From assembly GCA_000467715.1 (NCBI GenBank), contig AJFK01000768.1, forward strand, positions 1 through 64,000: a stretch of 64,000 nucleotides of DNA. Reading direction: 5' to 3'. The notes under the pieces were generated by a model that saw only the letters and a program-made list of their open reading frames with translations, ran no database searches and was not told the origin of the DNA. This stretch comes from Hysterium pulicare CBS 123377 (taxonomy: Eukaryota; Ascomycota; Dothideomycetes; Hysteriales; Hysteriaceae). A program made the translations under genes and the position numbers. Position 1 is the stretch's first letter, and each line of letters begins with the position of its first letter. This document shows, one piece after another, positions 36,382 to 64,000 of the stretch.

Positions 36382-37234
36382 TGCCTGTGGTTTGAATTGA
36401 GTTGTTCCAAAGCTCGATTGACGGCGGCAGCTTGGTGATTATTTTTTGATGAGGGAGGTTTTAGCGATCACGTGCACTGGCTTTCACTCGCCTAAACTTG
36501 TCTTAAACTTTACCCCCTTCTTCTCGAAGAGCATTTCAAGATTTAATTGACATCAAAACCGCATCCATTGGTTGATTCATAGAAATGGTTAGTATATTGT
36601 CTTTCGTTGCTTTTCTTACCACAGAGCACTTATCTTCTCCCTCTATATGAGATCACAAAGGTTAATGAACTTGTCAGCAGTTCGTCTACTCATGGAAACC
36701 GTAGCATTAGGATACTTCTTCAATGAACAAAAGAGTTCTTATGCCATTCCTCTTCTATTTCAGCTCCAGTAACACACTATCTGTTTCTAGTTGTATTATG
36801 AATAACTTAATATCTCCTCATCTCATTCAGAATCAAATTCAACATCTCAAATCAACTTTCGGTATCGAGACCACGTTGTATGCTACTGAAAGCTAACAAC
36901 GACATGCTGCAAATCCTTCCCATGGTTCTGTTTTAAGGTAGAAGACCGGCACGCCGGGCCCTAGACCTCTCACTACCACAAGGTACATCGAAGCTAACCT
37001 GAACTCGGTAAAGCAACCATATGCACGTTTCGCAGCTATTGGCGGGGGTTTGCAACTGCCAGGAACCACCTCGCACCGCATGATGAACGCATTTCCATCC
37101 AGCATCATCATCCTAGGTTTGGGAGACCCAGCATGTACATAAGTAGGGGGACGAGGCCAGGTTGCCGGGTGCGAGTTGAAACACATTTTGTTTCTCTTCG
37201 TTTAATCCGTTGCTTGTTTTAAAGGTCTTTGGCC
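36382..37234. other. Intergenic; possible tiny spliced ORF
   Basis: An ATG at about 36595 is followed directly by GTTAGT, and acceptor-like CAG sites occur downstream. One splice combination gives a peptide of about 33 residues (MSTYLLPLYEITK then NQIQHLKSTFGIETTLYATE). It has no known match that I recognise and is not called as a gene. Confidence 0.25.
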
Positions 37235-47501: not shown

Positions 47502-48024
47502 CTATGACGCTATAGCAACGAACTCTATCTCGACATCAGTCCCCAAAGGTAGAGCAGCCACTTGAACACAAGTTCGTGCCTATTACATGGCCGACGTTAG
47601 CTCTTGCCATCTACTAAAGTATACGAGCAGACGAAAGAACGAGGTCAACATACAGGTTTATAATCCGAGAAAAACTCCAAATACGCTTCATTCATGGCCC
47701 CAAAGTCCGCCATATTAGTCAAATAGACGTTGCATTTGACGATATTATCCAATTTAGAGCCAGCATCTGCGAGAACGCCGGAGATGATGCGCATGATTTG
47801 CCTCTTTGTGGTATCAGTACCATTCACCAAGCATTTCTCGAGCTTTGAGAGCTTACCGTCCTATCCTTGACATCCCCCTCAACAATTTTGTTAGTCTTAG
47901 GATCCATTCCAATATTCCCACTTCCATATATCATGCCATTATGCTTTACAGCAGCAGAAAAAGGCATCACGGGAAAGGGTTTAGGAGTAGCGTCTGTTTC
48001 GACGACTTCTTTCGTGGATGCCAT
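47502..48024 (-). CDS. RidA/YjgF-family enamine/imine deaminase
   Basis: Three exons, 131 aa, with introns at 47804-47856 and 47580-47652. RidA proteins hydrolyse reactive enamine/imine intermediates of PLP enzymes, releasing ammonia. The full trimer-forming domain is present: AAVKHNGMIYGSGNIGMDPK, RQIMRIISGVLADAGSKLDN, IVKCNVYLTNMADFGAMNEA and the catalytic-Arg segment ARTCVQVAALPLGTDVEIEF. Length matches the family (about 130 aa). An in-frame upstream extension with Met codons (about 48079 and 48162) could add a hydrophobic/basic leader, so a mitochondrial isoform is conceivable. The ATG at 48024 gives the usual cytosolic length. Confidence 0.92.
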
Positions 48025-48354
48025 TTTCGGGGCTGATAGATGATTTGTCACTTGAGAAAGTCGTTGGGACTGTGGAGACATGAAGGAGAAGACGAAGAAA
48101 AAACGAAGGAGAATAAGCTGATAAGTAGTTTTGGTACCTTGGATTGTTGTTGTCTTTATCAATCAAGATAGATTTTCACGCCCTACTGCTGACTGCATGC
48201 GGGGCTCAAGATTCTCACCCCCACTTTATGATATCTACCTACCTAGGTATTTCGAAGTAAGAACAACAAAGGTATAAACTTACTCTGATCTTTAGGCATC
48301 ATTGTAATAGGCATCTGCTTTCCAAACATGGATCTCGCTGAGACCCAAGCCCAA
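48025..48354. other. Intergenic between RidA and GNAT genes
   Basis: Short spacer with a pyrimidine-rich stretch upstream of the RidA start. No other feature is seen. Confidence 0.5.
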
Positions 48355-49165
48355 TCAATCCTTCTTCCCCGAGAGAGGACCCCTTCTAACCAGATTAACC
48401 TTCCCACAAGGCACAAACCCAGCATGCAAGTAAACAGGCCTCGCATAAGGCGCGGCCTCCAAATACAACGGCGTAGGCGGCTCCATCCGATCAGCCTGCT
48501 CAATCGCCCAATCCATCAAGAGCCTCCCGACTCCGCGCCCCTGATACTCGGGGTATACAAACAGAGGCGCAAGATACCAATGCGGCTCATCGCCCATGAC
48601 CTCTTTCCGTATATCATCATGCGCATCAAATGACTCCTTCCAAGCCTCGATATCTGTGCCTGCCCACATATCCGCCACCTCGGCCTCTGTCCAGCCTTTG
48701 TGCTCGGCGAACTTGAAGTGTTCTACTGCTGAGCGCCGCCAGACGTTGTACACTTCTGCTCCCGGTGCCATCCAGCCTGCGACTCCGATCAATTGCCCCG
48801 TACTGGCAAGTGACGCTTTTATAAACTTCATGTGTGGGAGGGAAAGAGACGGTCGAAGGCGTTTGGCTAGTCGTGCTATGCGGATGTCGAGGGAGGGGCG
48901 GAGAGCGGGGGGCTCCATTTTACCCCAGAAGCCCTCTGGGAAGCTGGCGTACATGCCATCGGCCTATTTTACGTCCAGAACTAGTGTTTAGTGTGGTGTT
49001 GAAGGGGGTGTTTAAGGGCAAGCTCACCAATGCTTCGAAGTCCCCCTCTCCAATGGCAGAGATGACAATGTCGGACGTGGGGATTCGGGCGGAGGGTTCG
49101 ACTGGGAGTGTTTGCGGAGGATTGCCTTCTGGCACTTCTACGGTGATGAGTTCGGCCTCCGACAT
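48355..49165 (-). CDS. GNAT-family N-acetyltransferase
   Basis: Two exons, 248 aa, with an intron at 48964-49026. The fold's acetyl-CoA binding motif A is clear in LFVYPEYQGRGVGRLLMDWA (Q/RxxGxG). The preceding strand GDEPHWYLAPLFV and the C-terminal strand YLEAAPYARPVYLHAGFVPC are typical of fungal small-molecule or peptide acetyltransferases. The N-terminus (SDIVISAIGEGDFEAL, then ADGMYASFPEGFW) matches this fungal subgroup, in which the substrate has not been defined. It reads in the same direction as the RidA gene downstream, but with 330 bp between them they are probably separate transcripts. Confidence 0.9.
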
Positions 49166-50917: not shown

Positions 50918-51081
50918 GTCTCTATGGCTGTGCGCGGATAGAGGCAGGAATGAAGCCTGATGTTCACAATCGGGTGGGACTAGAATATCGTAAGATCGAT
51001 GGGTTATGCTAACCTAGATGTGGTCGTTATAGGACGCTAAGAAGTATTAGTAACCTTTCCTTTATAATGAGTATCTGCTAC

Positions 51082-52215
51082 TTACTTCTCTGGTCTTGAG
51101 TAGGTATCAATAATCTCGGACATCTCAGGAAACTTTCGTCTGAACTTGTCCCCAACAGTCCAATTCTTCAATTGGCGGAGGTGTTCCTCGTAGATCGGGT
51201 TGATCAAAATCCCGCCACCTTCGCCAGGGGCTGTGGTGATAATGACGGAATTGGGGTCGTATTCCCAACGTATTAGGAATGACGTAGAAAATGCAGCAGC
51301 AAAGTCGTCCAACGTGATATCTGGATGCTCGATGAGGTAGCCTCGCACTTTCGGCCAAGCGATTCTATCGATCCAGGAAGCATGAGCTTTCTCGAGCTGA
51401 CACGGCACTGGCCTCAACCAGTCGGGCATTTGCTCGAAAGCCTGTTTTGTCCGTAGGACTTGCCACTTGAATCAAGCCCATCAGTCCAAGTCCTGATATA
51501 AGTAGGGGAATATTCTCATACTTTCATCAATGTAGACATAATGTAGTGAACAGCGATTTGCTTGGGTAAAGTGTCAATCTCGTGATAACCTATAAGTAAG
51601 CAAACATTAGATCTAGTTGAGTTGCTATTAGTTTCGGTTCTAGTACTTACTCCTCACAATATCGCCCACTACAGCACTCGTTTCGTCCACAATGCGGTTC
51701 GGTCTTCCATCGAACAAGGCACTGAGATCCGGTTTATCTGGATAAGCTTCAATCTTCCCAGCAGTCTGGAACGCGTACGCCTCCCAACGAGACTCGACAA
51801 AAGTTTGCAGTATTTGATCCGACATGCATGTTGGAGCGGTGTTCAGGGGAATGGCTTCGTAGGGCATCAATGTTCCTGCGGGTACGCTTGATGGCGAGCC
51901 TTCCTTCCCTTGTCCGTTTCCCAATAGTCGAAGCTGGAGAGCTGCCTTCTGGACTCTCAAATGATCGTTCTCCTCGGATACTGCGAGAAATCGCGTGTAA
52001 AGCTCAGCCTTCTCCCTAGATTCGACCGTCAAAGCCCGAGACAACTCATTGACTTGCTGAGTAAGACAAGCGATGTTCCACTTCGTCCTTTCTCTCATGG
52101 CCCGTTGGGACTTGCGATCCCTGGCTCGTTTACGCTGCAGGTTCTCATCATCCTGGTCTCGCGTTGTAGCCGGTGATGTCGTGTCACTGGGTGAAGTTGT
52201 ACTCGTAGCCATCAT
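51082..52215 (-). CDS. bZIP-type transcription factor with DUF3425
   Basis: Three exons, 338 aa, with introns at 51590-51650 and 51466-51521, in phase. The basic region (RKRARDRKSQRAMRERTKWN) runs into a leucine-zipper-like coil (LTQQVNELSRALTVESREKA, LYTRFLAVSEENDHLRVQKA). The C-terminal DUF3425 region is clear from MPDWLRPVPCQLEKAHASWI, DRIAWPKVRGYLIEHP, IRWEYDPNSVII and NPIYEEHLRQLKNWTVGDKF. This combination marks a large group of filamentous-ascomycete regulators that often sit beside metabolic gene clusters. Its position next to the catabolic-looking genes makes it a candidate local regulator (inference). The start is at ATG 52215; an ATG directly follows at 52212. Confidence 0.9.
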
Positions 52216-52632
52216 TTCTGCGACTTGGGCGTGCCTCCACAATTGAACAATATCACACAGTCAGCTTTGTTGATATCGAGGTTGGTGTCAATATTAAGTG
52301 CTGGGTTGAGTTGAAAGAGTGGAGAAGCTAGAGGGGTGGCCGGGCGCGATTTTCCGAGAGCTATCCCCGCAATTTATGACATGGTGTAAGCGCTAACAGG
52401 GTCAGTGCCAGCGATCGCTTACGACCCCTTCCGCTTCCCCAGCGAGCATCTCCGTGAGTCTGCTCATCAACTTCAACAGAGCCTCTTTTCTCTTCTATCT
52501 TAGGTCAGGAGTGACTGCAAGAGGACAGGACGGGAAACACTTGAAGTTACCAACTATGGATTCTCTGATATTGAACGACAACACCTTCGAAATGCTCATC
52601 ATACACGAAGCTACAGTCTCTTAGCCTGCGCC
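52216..52632. other. Intergenic between regulator and AtuA-like gene
   Basis: Promoter of the bZIP gene and 3' end of the AtuA-like gene. No feature could be assigned. Confidence 0.4.
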
Positions 52633-55133
52633 TTAGATGCGACCACGCTCAAGGAACTTGTTGGGAATGTCCACTTTCTTGCATCTGATATACTCGCAAA
52701 GGTTCTTGCCCAAGCTGTCGTAGCCGCTCGTTGCATTGAACCCTCTGTCTAAATGGTCGCGAAGCAGGAAATGAACGCCGTTGATGTTTGGTAGTTCTGT
52801 AGAAATCAGTCACGAGTACCAACAATAGCTGGGAGAAATGTTTCCAGGGTGCTTACCGCAGCGATCAATGTTCTTGCCCTTGTCGTCTTTGCCAAGTAGC
52901 TCTCGTATCTTTTCAACCGTGAGAAGACTTCGCAGCCAGTCATACTCGTCCCCGTGGCGGACCCACAAACCCAAATTCGCATTGGACGATTTATCTCCAG
53001 AGCGGCCCATAACAACATATCCCAATGGAGCACGAGTGGTAGGGCCGAAAGAAGAGAGATCTGCGGGGTTCGTCGGGCCATATGATGGTTGATTGAAATC
53101 GTACTGCTTCGTGAGGGTCGGAGTGGGGATATCCACTACAGTGCCGTCGGGCAGATGCGCAGTCTCCTTCACGAATGATTGCGGCATTAGACTGACCCAG
53201 TACTCGAAAAAGGGTCTTCCGATGGCCTGCCGCATATCAGGGTTCATGGTGGAGCCTGGATAGCCTTGCAGCAGATTCTCAATGCAAAACCGGGCGAATG
53301 AACCACGGTCAGAGTCTACGATAGCTCCAGCAGAGAGAATATCGGGATCTTGAGACTGTGCGAAGATGCGGTAGTCGACTGTAGCTTCGTCCTGTCATAA
53401 ACATCAGTATAAAGCATTCCCAGAACTGTTGAGAATGAGATTTGCATACCTGTGATTGTGGATCATCTGGAACTGTGCCGCACGTTTGAAATTTTAGGCA
53501 GGAGAATTTCTTCACGTCGTCACCCATGGCTTTACGGATTTGCATTTCGGTCATTTTAGCTTTCTCTTCGATGTCAAGTCCAGTTAGGAAGAAGTGGAAC
53601 TCGGCTTGATAACCGCCTTTAGCAGTAATGCCAACTAGACCACGACATTAGCTATTTGTCATGAGCAGAATTCAACTGACTTACCCTTGGTAGTCGGAGG
53701 CGGAGGGAGGCCTTGTACCCCTGAAACCTTGACAGCGTTCTCGCCAACCTGTTCCAGCTTGACTTTCTCAATCTGGGCGGTGACATCCGAGTTGTAGTAG
53801 TAAGGTCCCTAATCTTGCATTAGAATCTAGAGTTAACTACTTAATTAAGTAGACTTAATACCTGAATCTCATATAGCAGCTGACTAGCAACAGTGTGGAT
53901 ATTCACTAGTCCATCCCTGCCCTTCTCCATGGTAATCACAGCCTCACCAAGGTGGTCAATTGCCGCGATGGGGTATGCCATATCGAGGTAGTTTGGAGCA
54001 AGAGATTTGAAGCCGCTGTAGTAGCCTCCTGTAGCGTAGTTCGAGCATTCAATGATATGTCCAACTTTTGAAGATTAGCATGGATAATAGTCCAACTTTT
54101 GGAACATTATCTCACCCATGAGAGCACCAGCAAGTTCTTGAATGTTTTCACGGCTCCATCCGTGCCACCACATCGCAGCACCGACTGTGACGGAGGCATC
54201 GGCGACACGACCGCAAACAACGATGTCAGCACCGCCTAAAGGAGGTTTAGTCATGGCGCAGTCGTTTCAAGATCATCTACTACTTACCTGCAAAGCACGC
54301 TGCAATACCCGTGCCTCCCAGGTAGCACTGGGCGCAGATCGGATCGAAGCCCCAGTCTTTGATGTTCTTTCCCGCTGGAAGATTGGGGAAATTCTCGCCT
54401 GGACACCGTTAAGTCATGTACTCTCTTGGCCCGCATCCAGGTTTAAAGTGGTGCTGGAGAAGAAAAGTTCCGAAATTCTCACCTTTCTTCAAGAGTTCAA
54501 ACATAGCATCTGTCACATCATCGCCGTCCACATAGCCGACTTTCAAGTCAACTCCGTGTTTGACAATTAGCTTCTTGACTTCCTCTGCAAGGCCTTGCAC
54601 GTCACTAGCTCCAGCATTTACGCAAACTTTGGTATTGTTCTTGGCGAGCCATGGGATAGCAGGGTCAATTTCCTGGAGAAAATATGGCTCGAACTGCAGC
54701 GAGGGCAAGATTAGAATCAGGCTGAAAAATTCAGAGGTTCGGGAAAGTGACATCCACCTACCGCTGCACCAACGTTTGACAATTGCTTTTTGGCAAGCTT
54801 GTCTCTCTTGTCCGAACCTCTCAGTGTCATGTTGCATTCGCTCATCCAGTCACCTGCAAAAATTCAGCTGTTGAGGAACAAACCTTCAGTTAGTCCGACG
54901 AGGAACCATACCAGTAATGACATCGACCTGTGGCTCGTTCTTAGCCATGTCATGAATCGCTCTTGCACGATCGTAAACACCTGTAATGGCAACATCAGTA
55001 AGCAAGCCAGTGCCTGAGGTATTTTCAAAGGTTACAAACCTCCAGAGCACCCCGCGATATTGATCGGCCTCTTATGTGTGCCATTTACACCATTGGTGCC
55101 GTTGACACCGTTTGTTCCGTTCGTGACAGGCAT
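52633..55133 (-). CDS. AtuA-like (DUF1446) protein with C-terminal AtuA-type domain
   Basis: Eleven exons, 635 aa. Introns: 54981-55039, 54854-54911, 54694-54761, 54399-54482, 54236-54287, 54065-54115, 53809-53861, 53635-53684, 53392-53449 and 52797-52856; all phases close. The N-terminus repeats NGTNGVNG and is followed by INIAGCSGGVYDRARAIHDM. Core DUF1446 motifs follow: VDVITGDWMSECNM, KVCVNAGASDVQGLAEEV, CAQCYLGGTGIAACFAGGAD, IVVCGRVADASVTVGAAMWW and HIIECSNYATGGYYSGF. The C-terminal domain begins APLGYVVMGRSGDKSSNANL and ends YIRCKKVDIPNKFLERGRI. AtuA belongs to bacterial acyclic-terpene (citronellol/geraniol) utilisation operons, but its biochemical role is not settled. In this setting a catabolic role on an acyl-CoA or terpenoid-derived acid is inferred. 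No organelle signal is obvious. Confidence 0.9.
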
Positions 55134-55979
55134 TTCGTATAAGAAAGAAAGTTGGAAGGCAAATGTCGAAAGAGAAAGTCAAGGATTCAACGGGGGTGTC
55201 GTGAGAAATAATCCGGCTGCAAAAGATAAAGAGTATCGTACGATGTGTTGACTTTAAAGGTCTGGGTGAGTCCGGTGCACATAGCGTGCTCGAATGTCCC
55301 CACGCCGCGTTATCCAGCATCTTTGGTATATCGGCACATGACACCCTGGGAGCTTAGAGCAGTGTTGCGGGGGGTTAAATCAAAAGCCAGCCGGTCTTAT
55401 AAGTCCGAGAGACGTTTTAGGTCCTATGCAGCAAACGCCGCGGTGGTAAGCATCCTGAGGGCGGCTTTAATTAGCCAGTAAATTCTAAGCTCCGATAAAA
55501 CAAAATACGGAATTCCTCTTCTGGTTGGTAGGCGAATCGACAGTTGCTCCAGTGGAGAAAGATGGGGGCACAGCCATTAGCAAACTAGTGATTCATCCTT
55601 GCGGGTGTCAAACTCACTAACGCTAATGATTCATTGCCCAAATCGTCCGATTGGTACCCCGCGAGTTCCTTACCTATAGCACCCTATTGATAAACATTCA
55701 TCCAGGTAGAAGTTTTGTTGGCCGAGAGACTGGCAAGAGACTGGCACAGGAATTAGGCCATCTGAAAAAATCCACGCTTCACACTTCTGCGCCCTATAGA
55801 TCCGATTCTGATTTGTTAGGCACTTTTCCTTCTCCAAATATACGGAGATAATTTTCGTGGACAATTTTGATATATCAACAATGACACTCTAGCTCAGTAG
55901 ATGATACTATCACGAAGTAGATGACTACCAGTGATATGCTTGATCCATTTTAATTGCCAAACCCGAAGGGAGACCTATT
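55134..55979. other. Intergenic, no gene seen
   Basis: About 0.85 kb upstream of the AtuA-like gene. Both strands show only short frames without domains. A gene-local promoter is expected at the left part. Confidence 0.4.
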
Positions 55980-56702
55980 TCAGAGATTGGGTGCAGTTTT
56001 TTCTTTGTGAAGATAACCAGCAACCACCTTCAAGAACGCAAATTGCAAATTTGTCCTAATTTCTCCATACTTGGCCTTGTTGTCCACAACAGCAGAGCTC
56101 TTGGCGTGAACATCCCAAAGATAGTTCTTACTCTCGTAGACTTCCACCGTCCTGATAGTATTCGCGTTATCCTTATCCTTCAGAATGGCATAACCCAAGG
56201 TTCCTGGCTCATTCCGCTGGCTTTCCAAGGTGACCTTCTGCCAGCCATCGAAGGCACCCTCCCTAGTCCCCTCCTTGTAGTCCAGAGTAGCAAATACGAT
56301 ATAAGGGTCGCTCGCTTTCACAGTCTCTGATCGTGAAAATGAAAACACTGTCTCCGTGGTGTATACATTAGGAGGTCCTTCGAAGAGTGAGGCATCCGAT
56401 GAAAAGACTTTAATCAGGTCGGTAACGGCTGCAGATCCCATGTGCGAGTCCAGCGCAGCCTGGTCAGCATACCTGTAAAAGTCAGTTTACAGTTGATCAA
56501 ATAAAGGAAGAGTTGCATACTCTTCGATTACATAGACGGACTTCTCGTCTTGGGTATCTTGTGGTATGGTAATGGCGTAGCGCGTTACGCCGGGTTCCTG
56601 ATCTTTGGAGAATTGGCTGACTTTTGTGAGATTTTCGAGGACCTTTTCTCTCGCATCTTTCCCAGCCGTGGTAAGGTGCCCGATCACTGCAATAGATGGC
56701 AT
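55980..56702 (-). CDS. Tandem ABM (antibiotic biosynthesis monooxygenase-like) domain protein
   Basis: Two exons, 224 aa, with an intron at 56473-56520 (48 bp). Two dimeric alpha-beta barrel (ABM) units follow each other. The first is PSIAVIGHLTTAGKDAREKV, EPGVTRYAITIPQDTQDEKS and VYVIEEYADQAALDSHMGSA. The second is DPYIVFATLDYKEGTREGAF, GTLGYAILKDKDNANTIRTV and EVYESKNYLWDVHAKSSAV. ABM domains act as cofactor-free oxygenases, isomerases or cyclases, or as small-molecule binders. The substrate cannot be read. The two units in one chain would form a pseudo-dimer. It lies inside the catabolic-looking cluster on the same strand as the AtuA-like and transporter genes. Confidence 0.88.
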
Positions 56703-57093
56703 GTTGTAGTAAGTTCAAATTGAGGTTGGTTGCGGAAGGTTGCAGTGCTCAAGTCTAGAGATCTCGAAGATCTACGCTCCAGCCCACAGCACGTGGGAAC
56801 ACACTAAGGAGCACATGAGGGAGGGGTATGGTCCAACGAGCATTAACTGGTGGGGACGGTGGATTGGTAGTGTTGAAAGGGAAGATGGATGCCGAAGTTG
56901 AGGCTTCGGTTCGGCTCAAGAGCGCGCTTCCGACTGCACGTGATTTTACTTTTTCTACTAGCCGAATATCAAGTATATGTGCATCATCATTATTTACTTT
57001 CCTGTCTTCTTAATGCAACACTTGTCTGCTCTTTTAAAACTCAAAGAATTCAACTACTATCTGAACGCGGGAACGACATTACAGCGCAGAATT
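56703..57093. other. Intergenic between ABM and transporter genes
   Basis: Promoter of the ABM gene and 3' end of the transporter. No distinct feature is recognised. Confidence 0.4.
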
Positions 57094-59125
57094 TTACACG
57101 TTAGGTTCCTTGTGGTGAACACCTGCATCCTCCAAATTGCCACCAATCCCTTTCCCGTGCATCCTTCTCTCAACTTTGCTCGTCAAGTGCTTCTTCGGGT
57201 CTTTCGTCAATAAGGATCCAATGATGGCAATTCCTCCAAACCCCAGTGATGCAAGATACACCGTCTTGAATGCCTGGGAATAAGCAGTTGGAATCGACTC
57301 GGCCACTGCACCAATAATTCCTTTCGTGATACCAGGAACCTTTGCGAGCGTCCCAGCTGAGATGGCCTCCAAAAGCACTGGCACCACTGACGCAGGTAGT
57401 CCAGCCTTTACCGCAGCACCTCCGACCACCGTAGGGAGAGTTGTAGTCAGTCTGTTCGTGAGGATGGTTGAATAGACAGCGACCGCAACGGACCCTCCAG
57501 CAGCTCTGATGCTAGCAAGCATACCAGACGAAAGGCCAATATCTTCCGCATGACAGAAGAGAGGCGCTAGTGACTAAGAAGACTTAGTGAATTTGCCGAG
57601 GACGTTGTCGCAGGGTGCTTACCAGAGCAGCCAGCTCAATGAAGCCGACAAAGAACGGCCCGATGATGGTAAACGCTATTCCCATACTTTTCGTGCTCGG
57701 TGTCAAAGAAGCCAGAGATGACACGAAGGCCACCATGCCAAAGGCAGACAAAATGAGCCAATATCTTGTGCCCCCAAATACCTTGATCATCCCACCGGCA
57801 CAAATCTGCCCAAGAGCTGTTGCTGCGGAAACAGTGCACTTCGACAATAGTCAGTTGGGTTTGACCCTACACCCTTAGAAGAAGCACACTTACCGAGAGC
57901 CAACCGGCATAACTCGTGTCAGTCGTGTACATAGTAGCAACCTGTTGAGGCCAGAGCAATACTGCTGAGTAATAGAACATGCTCGCCACCGTCGCGCATG
58001 CCACTAAGCTTATGAAACCCCTATTGCGGAAGAATTTCATGGGCATCAGGGGATATTTCGTATTCCCGAAAGCTTCCCAACAGCCGAAGGAGATCAAGAG
58101 AATTCCACCGATGACAATGGTGCAGATTACTCCAGCTGATCTCCATGGGTACAGTCCGCCTCCCTAATTTCTGTGAGCATTTTGCTTGAAGAGAAGAGAA
58201 GGTGCAAGAGAGGAAGAAAGCAATTTACCCAGCTAATGCCCATTAAGAAGAGTGTCATTCCGGATACAAAGAGAAACATTCCAACATAGTCTAACTCTTT
58301 CATTTGGGAGCGCTTGGACTTGTGCTCATGCAACATGTGGAAGGTGGGCGGATGATAGAAGAGGACGAGCAGAACTGAGACTGTAAGCAGCCGCAAATTA
58401 GGGGCGGTATGTGAGCTCACTGATTGCAACGCCAACTACGATCAAGTTGATATAGTACGTCCAGCGCCAGCCTAGTGATGGATGTGCTACGAAGGCTCGA
58501 GCTATCTTAGGTCCAAAAGTCGCGATAGGCGCTGAGGTTGCAAAAATGAAGGACATCACCGCAGGACCTGCATGATCATTAGCACGCCATCCATGTGTTG
58601 CAACCTCAAAAACTTACGGTACTTATTTGGAACAAGTTCTCCGACAGCGACGCCGAAACTTAGCTGAATGCACTCCCCAATGCCATAAACAACGCTGGCA
58701 ACAATCAGTGAGTTGATATTTTGTGCTGTTGCCCCAATAATCAAGCCGATAAAAGCTACGCAGTTGCCTCCGATAAAGAAGTAACGGCGACCAAACAAGT
58801 CTGAAAGCCGGCCGGATACCAGAAACATGCAGCTCTCTGCAAGCGTTCTTCCAATGTTGACCCATGTGATGTTCTTCGAGGGCCCAATATCCGCGTCAAT
58901 GGTAGTCAACACGTTTGTCGGCAGGATGAGGAAGATATACGCCGATATCTGGGCAAGACAGAGTCCAAAAAGCGTTCCAAGAAATGGTAGACTGTAGAAG
59001 TATCCTTTTGGAAGATCATCTCCCCGGGCAACGTCGTTTATGGATAGGATCTCCGCATCGCGGTCGGAGTTCTCGTCTTGCACGATCTCGTGCTTTTCTA
59101 CGGGCTCATGGTACTTTGCAGCCAT
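57094..59125 (-). CDS. MFS transporter, TRI12 family
   Basis: Six exons, 590 aa, with introns at 58568-58617, 58381-58420 (only 40 bp), 58164-58228, 57839-57893 and 57574-57622; all in phase. About 14 spans are expected. The TRI12-type pattern is seen in YIFLILPTNVLTTIDADIGP, NITWVNIGRTLAESCMFLVS, GRLSDLFGRRYFFIGGNC, YGIGECIQLSFGVAVGELVP, GGLYPWRSAGVICTIVIGGI and DIGLSSGMLASIRAAGGSVA. This group includes the trichothecene efflux pump Tri12 and siderophore-type carriers. In this cluster it may import or export the cluster's substrate at the plasma membrane (inference). The N-terminal roughly 50 residues are acidic and cytoplasmic. Confidence 0.9.
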
Positions 59126-59771
59126 CTTGGCTGAATTGTTTGCCTTGATATGACGGAAAGAAGAAGACAAGGGGAGAAAGGGAAAAAAAGATGAAATCCC
59201 AACCGCCTGGGAACGATGAATCCAGGGAGGCGGATAGGAACGCTGGAGGATGTTATAGAAAGTTTACTGCTTATATCCCGCTATGCCCAAAATGGCCTAC
59301 AACATGCAGCCATCGGTGTTTGGAAATTAAACTGCAGGGACTATCATTTTAGGATGGACCCGATGACTCGGAAGCATGAAAGGAGTGCGCCCAGACCATT
59401 CTCGCTCCGCATTGCACCAGCATTTACTAGCGCAGGCGGGCTGTGGGGTGAGGATGGGGAATAAGTGGAGAACCGGGGGCGGGAAGGTGTGAAGACAATC
59501 TACTCGGAAAACCTTTCGCTGACGCTGTACAGAATTCCCAAAACGTCGTACAAAGCGAAATCTGACTCCCGAATGCATGACTCGCCGCTTTTCCACCAGC
59601 TTTAGCGTCATCTTGCGTTTACACCACAATATACTTTCGCCTACTGGCTTCGTTACCAGCAGTCTACAAAGATGATAATTTGGACTGGATGAAAAGTTGA
59701 TGGATAATTGGCCTTCTTAGAGATTATCATGAACGTGCACTAATGAAGATCCAGCATACAACAATTTTGGC
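59126..59771. other. Intergenic, transporter promoter side
   Basis: About 0.65 kb between the transporter start and the SDR stop, same strand. No RNA gene or repeat is recognised. Confidence 0.4.
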
Positions 59772-60642
59772 TCAGCAGTTCCAGGCTCCATCGATTGAAT
59801 GCACTGCTCCAGAGATGAAAGACGATTCGTCACTCAAAAGGAATGCCACAAGATTGGCCACTTCGATAGGCTTCCCAACTCGTTGCAAGTAGCCTTGACT
59901 GTTGTCGAAAGTGACCGCAGCATTTCCTTTCCCAGCAATTTCTCTGGCCTTCGACACCATTGGAGTATCAATGGTTCCCCTGCCAATATTTCATCAGCAC
60001 TCATTCTGGCCTACAGAAGGAGGGACCTACGGTGCTATAGCATTGACTCTTATCCCCCTGTGACCCATATCCTTTGCTGCGCTCCTCGTGAGTCCGACGA
60101 CGCCATGCTTACTCGCCGAATACGCTGCATTCTTCTGTCGGCCTTGAATCCCAGCTATCGAAGCCGCATTGACGATTGAACCTCCATCTTTCATCGCCTG
60201 CAGTTCCGCTCTCTGGCAGTACCTAGGAAAATATAAGCAGCAGTTTATTTATTTAGGGAAGTCAATATACTAACATCACACCAGTGAGATTGACGCCAAT
60301 GACAAAATCCCAATCGGAATTCTCAAGTTCAGCTGCCGTTTTGTTGCCAATGCCGGTTCCGGTGACTCCAGCAAGGTTCGCCGCTCCATCCAATTTCCCA
60401 AAATGAGAGACCGTAGCATGTATCCAGGCATCTACTTGAGTACTATCTCTCACATCAAGTTTAAAGGTTTGGACGTGACCTCCTGCAGTGCGGATCTGGT
60501 GCGCTGCCTCATTCAGAGGACCTTCCTGTACATCAGCTAAAGATACCTGAGCACCGCGAGACGCCAAGAGCTTCGCAGTCTCTAATCCGATTCCAGATGC
60601 ACCTCCCGTTATGGCAATGACTTTCCCATTCAAGCTGGACAT
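59772..60642 (-). CDS. Short-chain dehydrogenase/reductase (classical SDR)
   Basis: Three exons, 255 aa, with introns at 60223-60274 and 59980-60030. The nucleotide-binding TGGASGIG motif opens the fold. It continues with LDVRD, NLAGV (a form of NNAG), the catalytic Ser in VNAASIAG, and YSASK with the catalytic Tyr and Lys. IRVNAIAPGTIDTPMV is followed by the C-terminal ISGAVHSIDGAWNC. The Asp after the second strand (SLADVQE) suggests NAD(H) rather than NADP(H). Such enzymes oxidise 3-hydroxyacyl-CoA or other secondary alcohols, which fits the cluster, although the substrate is not determined. It is divergent from the acyl-CoA ligase across 334 bp, consistent with co-regulation. Confidence 0.92.
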
Positions 60643-60976
60643 CTTTTAGTCGAAACTTATGCTTTTCCGTCAAGAAGTTTTAGATTTCAAATATTACGGT
60701 AAAACGAACAAGGATCAAAGAGAATATTAGCCCACTAATGGAGAAGCCACTCGTGGATATTATTGATTAGAATGCGCAGTTATTGCACAAATATACTGAC
60801 TTGCTTGGATGCAATTCTAGATCATACGTAGCCCCGCTTGGATATCTTCAACCGAGAGCAGAATCATGTGACTTCTTAAGAGCGCCTCAAGTCTATTTTC
60901 CCTTGTGTATTCTACAAAAGTACATTTTTGTGGACATCATGTTCACTTGTATATTTGAATACCATGATTCACCAGA
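60643..60976. promoter_or_regulatory. Bidirectional promoter, SDR / acyl-CoA ligase
   Basis: A 334-bp spacer separates the two divergent start codons. Shared control of both genes is likely. No specific factor site was identified by eye. Confidence 0.45.
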
Positions 60977-62961
60977 ATGTCATCTTCAACAATCTACCGT
61001 TCTGATTATCCCCCTCCGCAAGTTCCGACGAACCTTTCCGTCTCTCAACTACTTCAGCTTTACAATCCGGATGATGTCGAGAATGACAAGACGCTCTTTG
61101 AAGATGATTGGACCGGAAGGAAGCTTACGTACGCCGGAATAAGGGACGAAAGCAGTCGAGGCGCTTTTGGATTCAGGAACGTATTAGGTTTGCAAGAGGG
61201 CGATATTGTTTGTATCTGTGCCCCCAATTCTGTACGTGAACTGGACTCAGTGCTCTCTTACTCATTAGTACGAAGCTAACGGCAAAGGTTGATGTCGTGA
61301 AATTGATTCACGCGGTATTGTGGTGTGGAGGTACGGCAGTGTAGGTCTTCCGAATCCGAACCAAGAATATGTTTCTGCACTAACAATCTGATAGACTAGT
61401 CAATCCACTCAGCACTGCCTACGAAGTGGCGCACTGCCTGGAAGTATCTCGGCCAAATGTAGTCGCCGCGGACTCGAGTACGTGGCCTACATTGTTCGCA
61501 GCGGTCCAGAAAGTGACTACTGGCTTCCAGGAGCTGAAAGGAGTGTCTATTGATGATACCCAATCACCTTTATCATTCGTATGGTCATCTGCTTGTCCAT
61601 CTTCCGCTCGCCCTTGCTGATCCCGTTTAGGCAATCTCGCTTTCCCAACTTTTCGATCAGTGCCAAACGCTACCTCCTATGGATTTGTCTGGCCGAGATA
61701 GCAGAGATCACACTGCCGTCGTATGCTTCAGCTCCGGCACCAGTGGTAAGTCCAAGGGAGTGGAACTGTCTCACTTCAACCTGGTCGCTACCATGCTAGG
61801 TCTTCGGGCTACCGGTACGTTACTGGATAGACCTCATGATACACACAGTAACTCTGCTAATTAGTATATTTCTAGATCCGATGTACTGGAACGGTGGCAT
61901 TAGGGGAGTCTTCTTTGCCCCTCTTTGTCACATCTACGGTAGATCATCACGATTCAAAATCTAAGCTTTCGCCCAGGCTAATGACACAAGGATTAATGAC
62001 TGTGGCACTGATGGGCAGCTTCCTCGGATACTTTACGGTCTTGATGAAGAAGTACAGTCTAGAAGGCTTCCTGCAGCTCTCGGCAAAGATCAACGCTACT
62101 GCTCTCCGCATTCTTCCCACGATCGCTGTCGCAATGACCAAAGATCATGGATTTGATCTCTCCCGGCTAGCAAGCGTTAGGTTCATCATGTGCTCTGGAG
62201 CTGCCTTGCCACCCTCGGTCATTGAATTCCTCAATACCAAGTTCCCCAATGCTCCTATTTTTCAGGGGTACGGGATGACAGAGACAAACATCACTACCTT
62301 GAAACCCGAGTCTGCGCATAGGGTTGGAAGTGTAGGAAAGCTGTTTGCTAATGTTGAAGCCAGGATCGTTGACGATGATATGAATGATGTCGAAGTAGGC
62401 CAACAAGGTGAGATGCTTGTACGTGGACCCTCAGTCTTTCGCAGGTACATGAATAATCTCGATGCAACGAGAGAAACGTTTCATGGTGGGTGGATGCGGA
62501 CCGGAGATATTTTACGGGTAGATGAAAAGGGGTTCTTCTATCTCACTGAGAGGAAAAAAGAACTTATCAAATATAAAGGGTGGGTTCTTATCACCCTTGG
62601 ATGGATAAAGGTTCTAACAATCTTTCTCAGTAACCAAGTGGCACCAGCGGAGTTGGAGGCAATACTTGACTCTCATCCAAACGTAAACGAATGTGCAGTA
62701 TGCGCACTTTGGGACGAGAACCAGGGAACTGAAGTTCCAATCGCATACGTCTCCCTCACTGCAGGTAGCAAGGCCGCCGGCAAGACCGTAGATGCTATGC
62801 TCGCAGATATCAGAAAACATGTCGATGACAAAGTGTCGCCTTACAAGAGATTGAGAGGAGGTGTAGTGGCATTGAATGAGATACCTAAATCTGGAAATGG
62901 GAAGATATTAAGACGTCTATTACCAGCACGTTTAGCCAGGGGGCGAAATTCAAAGTTGTAA
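60977..62961 (+). CDS. Peroxisomal AMP-binding acyl-CoA ligase (4-coumarate:CoA ligase-like)
   Basis: Seven exons, 552 aa, with introns at 61232-61287, 61341-61394, 61579-61630, 61815-61875, 61939-61990 and 62580-62630; phases close. The enzyme adenylates a carboxylic acid and transfers it to CoA. Motifs in order: CFSSGTSGKSKGVELSHFN (A3), APLCHIYG, IFQGYGMTETN (A5), GWMRTGDILRVDEKGFFYLT (A7), ERKKELIKYKG with the hinge region, and PKSGNGKILRRLLPARLA, whose GK is the catalytic lysine. The protein ends NSKL, a canonical peroxisomal targeting signal type 1. Overall it is closest to the fungal 4CL-like/aryl or medium-chain acid ligases. The substrate pocket cannot be assigned by eye. The unspliced frame at intron 5 also stays open, so retention there would insert residues after CHIYG. 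Confidence 0.93.
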
Positions 62962-62990
62962 AATCGATCGTTCAGATTCTATTTAATTTC

Positions 62991-63827
62991 TTATAATCTA
63001 CTACCTTTCCAAACAGGCGCTCTCTTTTCACTGAATGCCGCCAACCCTTCCAATATATTCTCCCCTTTCTGCAATTCTGCAAATTCTCTCTCCAACGTGA
63101 CTTCCACCGCTCTCTCTACCGAAGCCGTTTCCCATCCTTGCCTGATTCCGGCTCTCGTACATATGATGGCATCGGGGCTATTCACTGCAATAGCAGCCGC
63201 ATACTTAACAGCCTCATCCACTACCCTCTCCACAGGCACAACTTTATTAACAAGCCCCCATTCTAGGGCCTCTTGTGCCGTGATCGTCCTCCCCGTCAAA
63301 GCAAACTCACTCGCCCTCTGCAGCCCAATCGTCCTAATCAATCTAGGCAGACAACCTCCAATAGGCGAAACACCTCTCTTGACTTCCGGCAATCCAAACG
63401 TCGCTGTCTCCGCCGCAACCACCAAATCACAATTCACAATGAACTCGGTCCCTCCACCCATAGCAAGTCCATTGACAGCCGCAATAATAGGCTTCTTCCC
63501 CAACCTCCTACTCAATGGCTTAAACGCCGGTGCATTCCCCATCCTCTTCTTCGGATCTGCGTCGGATGCCATGGAGTTATTCCATTCTTTTAAGTCGGCG
63601 CCGGCGGAGAAGGCTCGGCCTGTGCCTGTTATTATGGCGACGGAGAGGTTGGGTTCCTCGTCTAGCCATTTCCATACGCTGTCCATCTCCCACTGGGCGT
63701 CGGTGTTCATTGCATTCAGGGAGGAGGGACGGTCCATCCGCACCAGGAGGACGCGAGGAGCTGGGTAGGAGAGTTTGAGGAAGGTGGGTGTAGGTGGTGC
63801 GGGGGTGATTGTTGGTTGATTCGACAT
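62991..63827 (-). CDS. Peroxisomal enoyl-CoA hydratase/isomerase family protein
   Basis: Single exon, 278 aa from the ATG at 63827; the open frame extends upstream to another Met at 63878. Crotonase-fold signatures are VLLVRMDRPSSLNAMNTD, the oxyanion-hole segment GTGRAFSAGADLKEW, and IIAAVNGLAMGGGTEFIVNC with CDLVVA and FGLPEVKRGVSPIGG. Its Glu residues fit hydratase chemistry: addition of water across a 2-enoyl-CoA double bond. The C-terminus GSRL is a PTS1 variant, matching the neighbouring ligase's SKL. The two genes are tail to tail with only 29 bp between stop codons, an unusually tight arrangement in which the transcripts must overlap at their 3' ends. Confidence 0.92.
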   Translation of the reverse strand: MSNQPTITPAPPTPTFLKLSYPAPRVLLVRMDRPSSLNAMNTDAQWEMDSVWKWLDEEPNLSVAIITGTGRAFSAGADLKEWNNSMASDADPKKRMGNAPAFKPLSRRLGKKPIIAAVNGLAMGGGTEFIVNCDLVVAAETATFGLPEVKRGVSPIGGCLPRLIRTIGLQRASEFALTGRTITAQEALEWGLVNKVVPVERVVDEAVKYAAAIAVNSPDAIICTRAGIRQGWETASVERAVEVTLEREFAELQKGENILEGLAAFSEKRAPVWKGSRL

Positions 63828-64000
63828 TATGGCAGTGTTCGTAGTCGTCTCACGTATGATTACGAGGAACAGTAACAATGAAAATAGTTGAAAACCAACT
63901 CAATCACTCAGACATCAATATTGGGAGTCGATGTCTCTGGAATCAGAAAGTTCAGACGAAAGCTGTGAGGGCGTTTCCTCACGAGTCAGAGAATGTCGGC

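Follow-up and report, generated by a model that had tools for sequence, protein, structure and literature searches.

On the 114,993-bp contig C501, the genome of Hysterium pulicare CBS 123377 (37.2 Mb in 596 contigs) carries a cluster of CoA-thioester enzymes that includes two AtuA-like proteins. The window, i.e., the 64,000-bp stretch under analysis (positions 1-64,000 of this contig), holds the left part of the cluster. A first-pass annotation of the window had guessed that the cluster continues past 64,000, and four further genes of like character were indeed found on the same contig (AtuA2, MaoC, ECH2, and ACL2 at 64491-71394). The complete neighborhood comprises 11 genes (contig 51027-71394, ~20.4 kb) with a doubled core of two AtuA genes, two acyl-CoA ligases (ACL), and two enoyl-CoA hydratases (ECH). 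Gene models came from a purpose-built splice-aware gene finder, those of AtuA1, ACL1, AtuA2, and MaoC were corrected by hand against family signatures, and the protein families of all cluster members were checked by Pfam. Introns were present in 32 of the 44 models over the first 104 kb of the contig, which fits the fungal origin assumed by the first-pass annotation, and all introns of the cluster models are of the GT-AG type. The seven genes originally named were each recovered in place as intact, spliceable models with Pfam support; for the regulator, announced as a bZIP/DUF3425 protein, Pfam reported the DUF3425 domain, whereas the bZIP basic region was recognized by eye only. The features, in contig coordinates, are as follows.

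51027..52215, minus strand: DUF3425 regulator, 332 aa, 4 exons (Pfam DUF3425, 75.8 bits; bZIP-like basic region RKRARDRKSQRAMRERTK by eye)
52633..55133, minus strand: AtuA1, 635 aa, 11 exons (Pfam AtuA, 541 bits, and AtuA_ferredoxin, 45 bits)
55589..55633, unstranded: two TGATTCA elements (55589 and 55627), 456 and 494 bp upstream of AtuA1
55980..56702, minus strand: double-ABM protein, 224 aa (Pfam ABM in 2 stretches; TGAWTCA absent upstream)
57094..59125, minus strand: TRI12-type major facilitator superfamily (MFS) transporter, 588 aa, 6 exons (Pfam TRI12, 261 bits; TGAWTCA absent upstream)
59772..60642, minus strand: short-chain dehydrogenase (SDR), 255 aa, 3 exons (Pfam adh_short_C2, 212 bits)
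60965..60971, unstranded: TGATTCA element in the divergent SDR/ACL1 promoter (promoter scan)
60977..62961, plus strand: ACL1, acyl-CoA ligase, 552 aa, 7 exons, C-terminus SKL (Pfam AMP-binding + C)
62991..63827, minus strand: ECH1, enoyl-CoA hydratase, 278 aa, single exon, C-terminus SRL (Pfam ECH_1; SidH-like)
63828-64490 (in the window, 63828..64000), unstranded: divergent ECH1-AtuA2 promoter with elements at 64024, 64042, and 64190
64186-64200, unstranded, beyond the window: palindrome CTAATGATTCATTAG in the ECH1-AtuA2 promoter
64491-66457, plus strand, beyond the window: AtuA2, 619 aa (Pfam AtuA, 537 bits)
66813-67966, plus strand, beyond the window: MaoC/hydratase-2 protein, 325 aa (Pfam)
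68048-68968, minus strand, beyond the window: ECH2, enoyl-CoA hydratase, 283 aa (Pfam)
69287 and 69310, unstranded, beyond the window: elements between ECH2 and ACL2 (promoter scan)
69658-71394, plus strand, beyond the window: ACL2, acyl-CoA ligase, 559 aa (Pfam)

Both AtuA proteins contain the full-length AtuA domain (PF07287, profile positions 1-437 of 437) fused to a C-terminal AtuA ferredoxin-like domain (PF23544), which scored 62 bits in AtuA2. They also share an RSGDK stretch, chosen by eye, of which R480, G482, D483, and K484 are invariant across 46 aligned bacterial AtuA rows. The two proteins are only 38% identical to one another. Eight AtuA genes occur in the genome over seven contigs, and identity to the six outside the cluster (the gene on contig C68 being counted as two pieces) is 45-54% for AtuA1, compared with 33-42% for AtuA2. 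In a tree of 80 bacterial AtuA sequences and seven fungal rows, from which the C68 pieces were excluded, a branch with support of 100 set the fungal rows apart, and AtuA2 was the deepest of them, on a very long branch. A separate recent gain of AtuA2 from bacteria is therefore unsupported, with the long branch as a caution about the method. No solved relative of AtuA2 was found among the Protein Data Bank (PDB) sequences; the sole match, mavicyanin (E 0.04), was taken as chance. The C68 gene resisted modeling in one piece, and since one of its matches runs across a TAG, it may be broken or possess unpredicted introns. Another AtuA locus (C145:50867-54294) has nearby a small protein and a distant ECH whose C-terminus is SKL. 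Small proteins at this locus and around the C513 AtuA gene were dropped as EthD/ABM-like partners after Pfam returned no match.

The best PDB relative of both hydratases is SidH (7OEQ), with 269 bits compared to 153 for the next chain in the case of ECH1 and 229 compared to 143 in the case of ECH2. Identities to the 7OEQ stretch were 55% for a hydratase on contig C23, 48% for ECH1, 46% for one on contig C526, and 41% for ECH2; the C23 protein is thus a better candidate, by sequence, for the SidH orthologue than either cluster enzyme. Of the genome's four ECH genes most similar to SidH, two fall within these 20 kb, as do two of its eight AtuA genes. SidH is described as a mevalonyl-CoA hydratase that dehydrates mevalonyl-CoA, a 3-hydroxy-3-methyl acyl-CoA (PMC3709128); the hydratase step in terpene and leucine breakdown is chemically of this type. 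The kinship tilts the predicted substrate class toward beta-methyl-branched acids. The top three NCBIfam models for ECH1 were EchA19, PRK08252, and DpgD, every one under its curated cut-off. ACL1 has 4-coumarate-CoA ligases as its best PDB relatives, and the MaoC protein is related to peroxisomal hydratase-2 enzymes. Identities of 42% between ECH1 and ECH2 and of 34% between ACL1 and ACL2, together with that of the AtuA pair, rule out a recent tandem duplication as the source of the doubled set.

A genome search with the cluster SDR, ranked by exon scores summed by hand, gave six close genes (on C501, C51, C68, C513, C233, and C540). Four of these have an AtuA gene no more than 10 kb away: that of the cluster and those on C51 (0.6 kb), C68 (~1.4 kb), and C513 (8.7 kb). 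Because ~0.4% of the genome, estimated by hand, is that close to an AtuA gene, the proximity of three of the five SDR genes outside the cluster is far from chance. The cluster regulator was the second best of nine DUF3425 matches (eight genes). The pairing of a DUF3425 gene with a neighboring SidH-like ECH is repeated once in the genome, on C526, and the DUF3425 genes of the two sites rank first and second among those matches. At the left end of that contig (C526:652-4838), the regulator adjoins the SidH-like ECH, which ends in SKL, and a nitronate monooxygenase (Pfam NMO) ending in AKL, possibly forming a second small peroxisomal set.

Strict type 1 peroxisomal targeting signals (PTS1) terminate ACL1 (SKL), ECH1 (SRL), and ACL2 (AKL). 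This amounts to three of the 11 cluster proteins versus four of 82 other predicted proteins, the latter belonging to three ECHs and a nitronate monooxygenase from loci picked for an ECH or AtuA match. AtuA2 (ASL), MaoC (SSL), and the ABM protein (PNL) fit only a loose pattern, and neither pattern was matched by AtuA1 (GRI), the SDR (WNC), ECH2 (SYL), the regulator, or the transporter.

The intergenic regions of the cluster are enriched in the element TGAWTCA, with eight sites in 4,456 bp compared to seven in the 39,167 bp of intergenic DNA elsewhere on C501 (binomial p 4e-5); gene spans contain two sites within the cluster and two outside. The eight intergenic sites are located upstream of AtuA1 and in the SDR-ACL1, ECH1-AtuA2, and ECH2-ACL2 gaps, i.e., in the promoters of seven enzyme genes over 14 kb, and the promoter scan revealed none upstream of the regulator, the ABM protein, or the transporter. 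The nearest intergenic site left of the cluster, on the side of the RidA and GNAT genes, is at 36573. TGATTCA was noticed to lie within a longer palindrome, and ATGATTCAT occurs four times in 114 kb, always in cluster intergenic DNA (55626, 64041, 64189, and 69309). When all k-mers were ranked, pieces of ATGATTCAT topped the 1,735 6-mers, 3,214 7-mers, and 4,005 8-mers, and ATGATTCAT itself was joint first among 4,245 9-mers. The element has half-sites of the AP-1 type, which are typical of bZIP factors, and the DUF3425 protein of the cluster is a plausible binder.

A genome-wide search with the palindrome provided a more independent test than the k-mer ranking. The exact 15-bp palindrome CTAATGATTCATTAG is present at two places in 37.2 Mb, the ECH1-AtuA2 promoter and C68:58641-58655, the latter ~190 bp ahead of where the AtuA paralogue with an adjacent SDR is predicted to start. 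By hand, the chance expectation for a 15-bp match is ~0.07 at equal base frequencies, and the 500-bp stretches upstream of the eight AtuA genes make up ~1e-4 of the genome. When 250 bp on each side of the two places were compared, the alignment spanned at most 23 bp around the palindrome; with such dissimilar flanks, the sites do not represent a copied promoter. Allowing one mismatch added six places compared to ~3 expected by hand (the reversed control gave two forward and none reverse), none of them on a contig with an AtuA gene. Paired TGATTCA sites gave 35 rows (20 forward and 15 reverse), corresponding to fewer places, and the reversed control gave three and three. One such pair, near a DUF3425 gene on C481, was discarded because it belonged to a short tandem repeat, separated from that gene by a further gene model.

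Left of the regulator, window 47502-49165 holds a RidA-type gene and a GNAT acetyltransferase gene (48355-49165); after ACL2, the next genes encode Fringe-like, NAD-epimerase-type, and methyltransferase proteins (Pfam). Three more remote genes of C501 were assigned by Pfam to a kinase, to DUF2828/DUF7788, and to no family. The initial statement that no unrelated gene stands between the seven is doubtful: the ABM protein, the transporter, and the regulator, whose upstream regions have no TGAWTCA, may only be neighbors of the enzyme set.

Bacterial AtuA genes keep company that is typical of acid breakdown. The loci compared were those of the best 80 of 210 relatives from one scan, a set biased toward AtuA2-like, fused proteins; 62 loci span at least 20 kb and the others are shorter, each family took its name from one member or a few, and the counts stand without a random-locus background. 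Codon-scored families comprised ECH (35 loci), acyl-CoA dehydrogenase (33), carboxyltransferase (22), biotin carboxylase (22), the TIGR03084 type (19), ligase (17), and the CoA-transferase III type (15). Counts by tblastn agreed (36 ECH, 33 acyl-CoA dehydrogenase, 22 carboxyltransferase, 22 biotin carboxylase, and 17 ligase, with 12 SDR and no MaoC). Three of the 80 loci, all from Pseudonocardia (L065, L073, and L121), share the order carboxyltransferase, biotin carboxylase, ligase, ECH, ligase, ECH, and AtuA; in the P. dioxanivorans CB1190 operon (L065:903-11743), a TIGR03084-type metal-binding protein stands between the last ECH and AtuA. A CoA-transferase III type protein is encoded directly downstream of AtuA in Actinomycetospora (L052:11787-13268), and this family occurs near AtuA in 15 of the 80 loci, including those of the closest bacterial relatives of AtuA2.

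In our interpretation, the cluster is a CoA-thioester module, jointly regulated and in part peroxisomal, that would handle a beta-branched acid of the isoprenoid-like kind; we assign this reading about an even chance of being correct. Gene content, the three strict PTS1 ends, the promoter element, and the recurrence of the AtuA-SDR pair support the shared CoA-dependent module in the degradation pathway that the first-pass annotation had proposed; its choice among terpenoid, aromatic, and branched acids is a matter of interpretation. The core would contain at least seven enzyme genes (AtuA1, AtuA2, SDR, ACL1, ACL2, ECH1, and ECH2), and MaoC probably belongs to it as well. In the proposed sequence, ACL1 or ACL2 would form the CoA-thioester of the acid inside the peroxisome, ECH1, ECH2, and the MaoC hydratase-2 would hydrate or dehydrate a branched intermediate, and the SDR would oxidize an alcohol or a 3-hydroxyacyl-CoA. 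A 3-methyl-branched enoyl- or 3-hydroxyacyl-CoA is a plausible substrate for ECH1 and ECH2, given their likeness to SidH. At the point where ordinary beta-oxidation comes to a halt, AtuA may act on the branched CoA intermediate, and the products would then enter general beta-oxidation and a leucine-type breakdown encoded at other loci. The set would be turned on via TGAWTCA by a bZIP-type factor, for which the cluster DUF3425 protein is a plausible candidate. The direction of breakdown is suggested by the company of bacterial AtuA and by the lack of core biosynthetic domains in the genes scanned, namely the 11 of the cluster and seven on its flanks. Such a cluster could explain how a fungus breaks down branched acids that are refractory to ordinary beta-oxidation.

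Several observations weigh against this interpretation. The strict PTS1 ends span part of the enzyme set, with AtuA1, SDR, and ECH2 lacking the signal and AtuA2 and MaoC possessing weak ones, so that the set may not share a single compartment. The promoter element was spotted by eye on C501 ahead of the enrichment test. Since the motif had been seen first, the k-mers were ranked without it in mind, and the products of p and the number of k-mers were ~0.10 (6-mers), 0.06 (7-mers), 0.24 (8-mers), and 0.45 (9-mers), none significant alone. MaoC has no upstream TGAWTCA, nor do five other AtuA genes within 1.5 kb upstream (some of their starts being uncertain) or the SidH-like hydratase beside the C526 DUF3425 gene. 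Among the best-scored candidates for each family genome-wide, acyl-CoA dehydrogenase (16 matches), thiolase (20 matches), carboxyltransferase (five matches from three genes, on C465, C106, and C278), and HMGL-like enzymes (five matches) had none on C501. With no such enzymes matched there, the classical Atu chemistry is impossible from the cluster alone, which either borrows a carboxylase and a lyase or runs a different chemistry.

The absence of a carboxylase and an acyl-CoA dehydrogenase, noted at first for the window, extends, as judged from those best-scored candidates, to the right-hand sequence, and the thiolase that had been proposed as a gene to look for there did not appear. Counterparts of citronellyl-CoA dehydrogenase (AtuD) and geranyl-CoA carboxylase (AtuC/AtuF) are missing from the cluster, all 16 genome matches to the acyl-CoA dehydrogenase middle domain (Acyl-CoA_dh_M) and all carboxyltransferase matches being off C501. 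The carboxyltransferases elsewhere include an acetyl-CoA-carboxylase-sized frame (C465) and an MCC-like gene (C106). On C106 (44299-59683), the MCC-beta-like carboxyltransferase, named by eye, shares ~15 kb with matches to an acyl-CoA dehydrogenase and an ACL1-like ligase (48% over the C-terminal part), both 10-15 kb from it, perhaps representing a leucine-type breakdown cluster able to finish the products. The third carboxyltransferase gene of the genome lies with a divergent biotin-carboxylase-like gene at a contig end (C278:66-4502); that pair was rejected as a nearby partner, since nothing connects this contig end to C501.

The same type of cluster could instead serve aromatic (phenylpropanoid or hydroxycinnamic) acids, with CoA-dependent side-chain shortening by a 4-coumarate-CoA ligase-like enzyme, a hydratase, and a dehydrogenase, and AtuA as an accessory. 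The best solved relatives of ACL1 agree with this proposal, and ABM-type proteins and efflux pumps often go with aromatic metabolism. However, such likeness is common to many fungal ligases, so the resemblance says little; moreover, ECH1 scored 269 bits to SidH but 107 to hydroxycinnamoyl-CoA hydratase-lyases, and Pfam identified no ring-cleavage or oxygenase family besides ABM in the cluster proteins. We regard an aromatic substrate as unlikely, though far from negligible. Kinship of both hydratases to SidH also lends itself to a biosynthetic cluster, in which peroxisomal steps like those of SidI and SidH build a branched acyl-CoA for a secreted metabolite and the DUF3425 regulator and TRI12 pump act as in secondary-metabolite clusters; SidI, SidH, and SidF are indeed peroxisomal and biosynthetic in Aspergillus (PMC3709128). 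This explanation appears improbable, as no polyketide synthase, nonribosomal peptide synthetase, terpene synthase, or SidF-type acyltransferase domain was detected in the cluster proteins or the seven flanking genes, the C23 protein is a better candidate for the true SidH, and bacterial AtuA is accompanied by breakdown enzymes.

It is also conceivable that two or more small functional sets, an AtuA-SDR-ligase-hydratase set and an ABM/TRI12/regulator set, lie side by side, not as one pathway. The regulator, ABM, MFS, and MaoC genes without upstream elements are consistent with this arrangement, as are the AtuA-SDR pairs on C51 and C68, which stand without a ligase or SidH-like hydratase in 20-kb gene models. 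The element common to the promoters of seven genes and the concentration of AtuA and SidH-like genes in one place argue otherwise, and we consider a loose neighborhood rather improbable. Returning to the branched-acid module, a more specific form of it has in our judgment a small chance of being correct: a fungal version of the Atu pathway that does without a carboxylase, in which peroxisomal AtuA and the SidH-like and MaoC hydratases would cleave a beta-methyl-branched (isoprenoid) acyl-CoA under a bZIP/DUF3425 switch that would also control a stand-alone AtuA-SDR locus elsewhere in the genome. If true, AtuA would gain a definable reaction. The family is without a settled reaction: the lyase step of the terpene pathway was assigned to AtuA as speculation or tentatively (PMC9973270 and PMC4847356) and was given to LiuE instead in another account (PMC4097962). 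Two divergent AtuA proteins with partners of known chemical class under one element make this question experimentally tractable.

No described fungal AtuA cluster was found in the open-access literature searched. Two proteins annotated as AtuA are reported from Phacidium infestans, a fungus on pine needles, where a role in uptake or detoxification is worded as a possibility; unlike here, no cluster, regulation, or function is stated for them in that passage (PMC12148953). Expression tables list one DUF1446 gene in Aspergillus nidulans and two in Moniliophthora roreri, and a bacterial DUF1446 gene, called a protein of unknown function, is given beside methylaspartate ammonia-lyase. The siderophore module SidI-SidH-SidF resembles the cluster in its peroxisomal ligase and SidH-type hydratase. 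In contrast to that module, ECH1 and ECH2 are 48% and 41% identical to SidH, and the cluster has no SidF-type acyltransferase: by Pfam, none of its 11 proteins has an acyltransferase domain, the one GNAT gene being left of the cluster. Neither AtuA nor an SDR is known to belong to the Sid module. The operon of P. dioxanivorans CB1190 likewise combines AtuA with two ligases and two hydratases, and the ECH next but one to its AtuA has the same top three NCBIfam models as ECH1, all below cut-off. It differs by including both carboxylase subunits and the TIGR03084 protein and by the absence of MaoC and SDR hits. With the Pseudomonas atuABCDEFGH system, the fungal cluster shares the combination of AtuA, SDR, enoyl-CoA hydratase, and acyl-CoA ligase, the counterparts of AtuE, AtuB/G, and AtuH being matched at the family level (Pfam ECH_1, adh_short_C2, and AMP-binding). 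The Atu logic, in which an acid is activated as its CoA-thioester and then hydrated (PMC4847356 and PMC4097962), would suit both. The fungal contig differs in being without a match to an AtuC-type carboxyltransferase or AtuD-type acyl-CoA dehydrogenase, and where Pseudomonas has an AtuR operator (PMC9973270), the fungus has a bZIP-type element, along with two divergent AtuA proteins, two ligases, two hydratases, MaoC, and peroxisomal signals.

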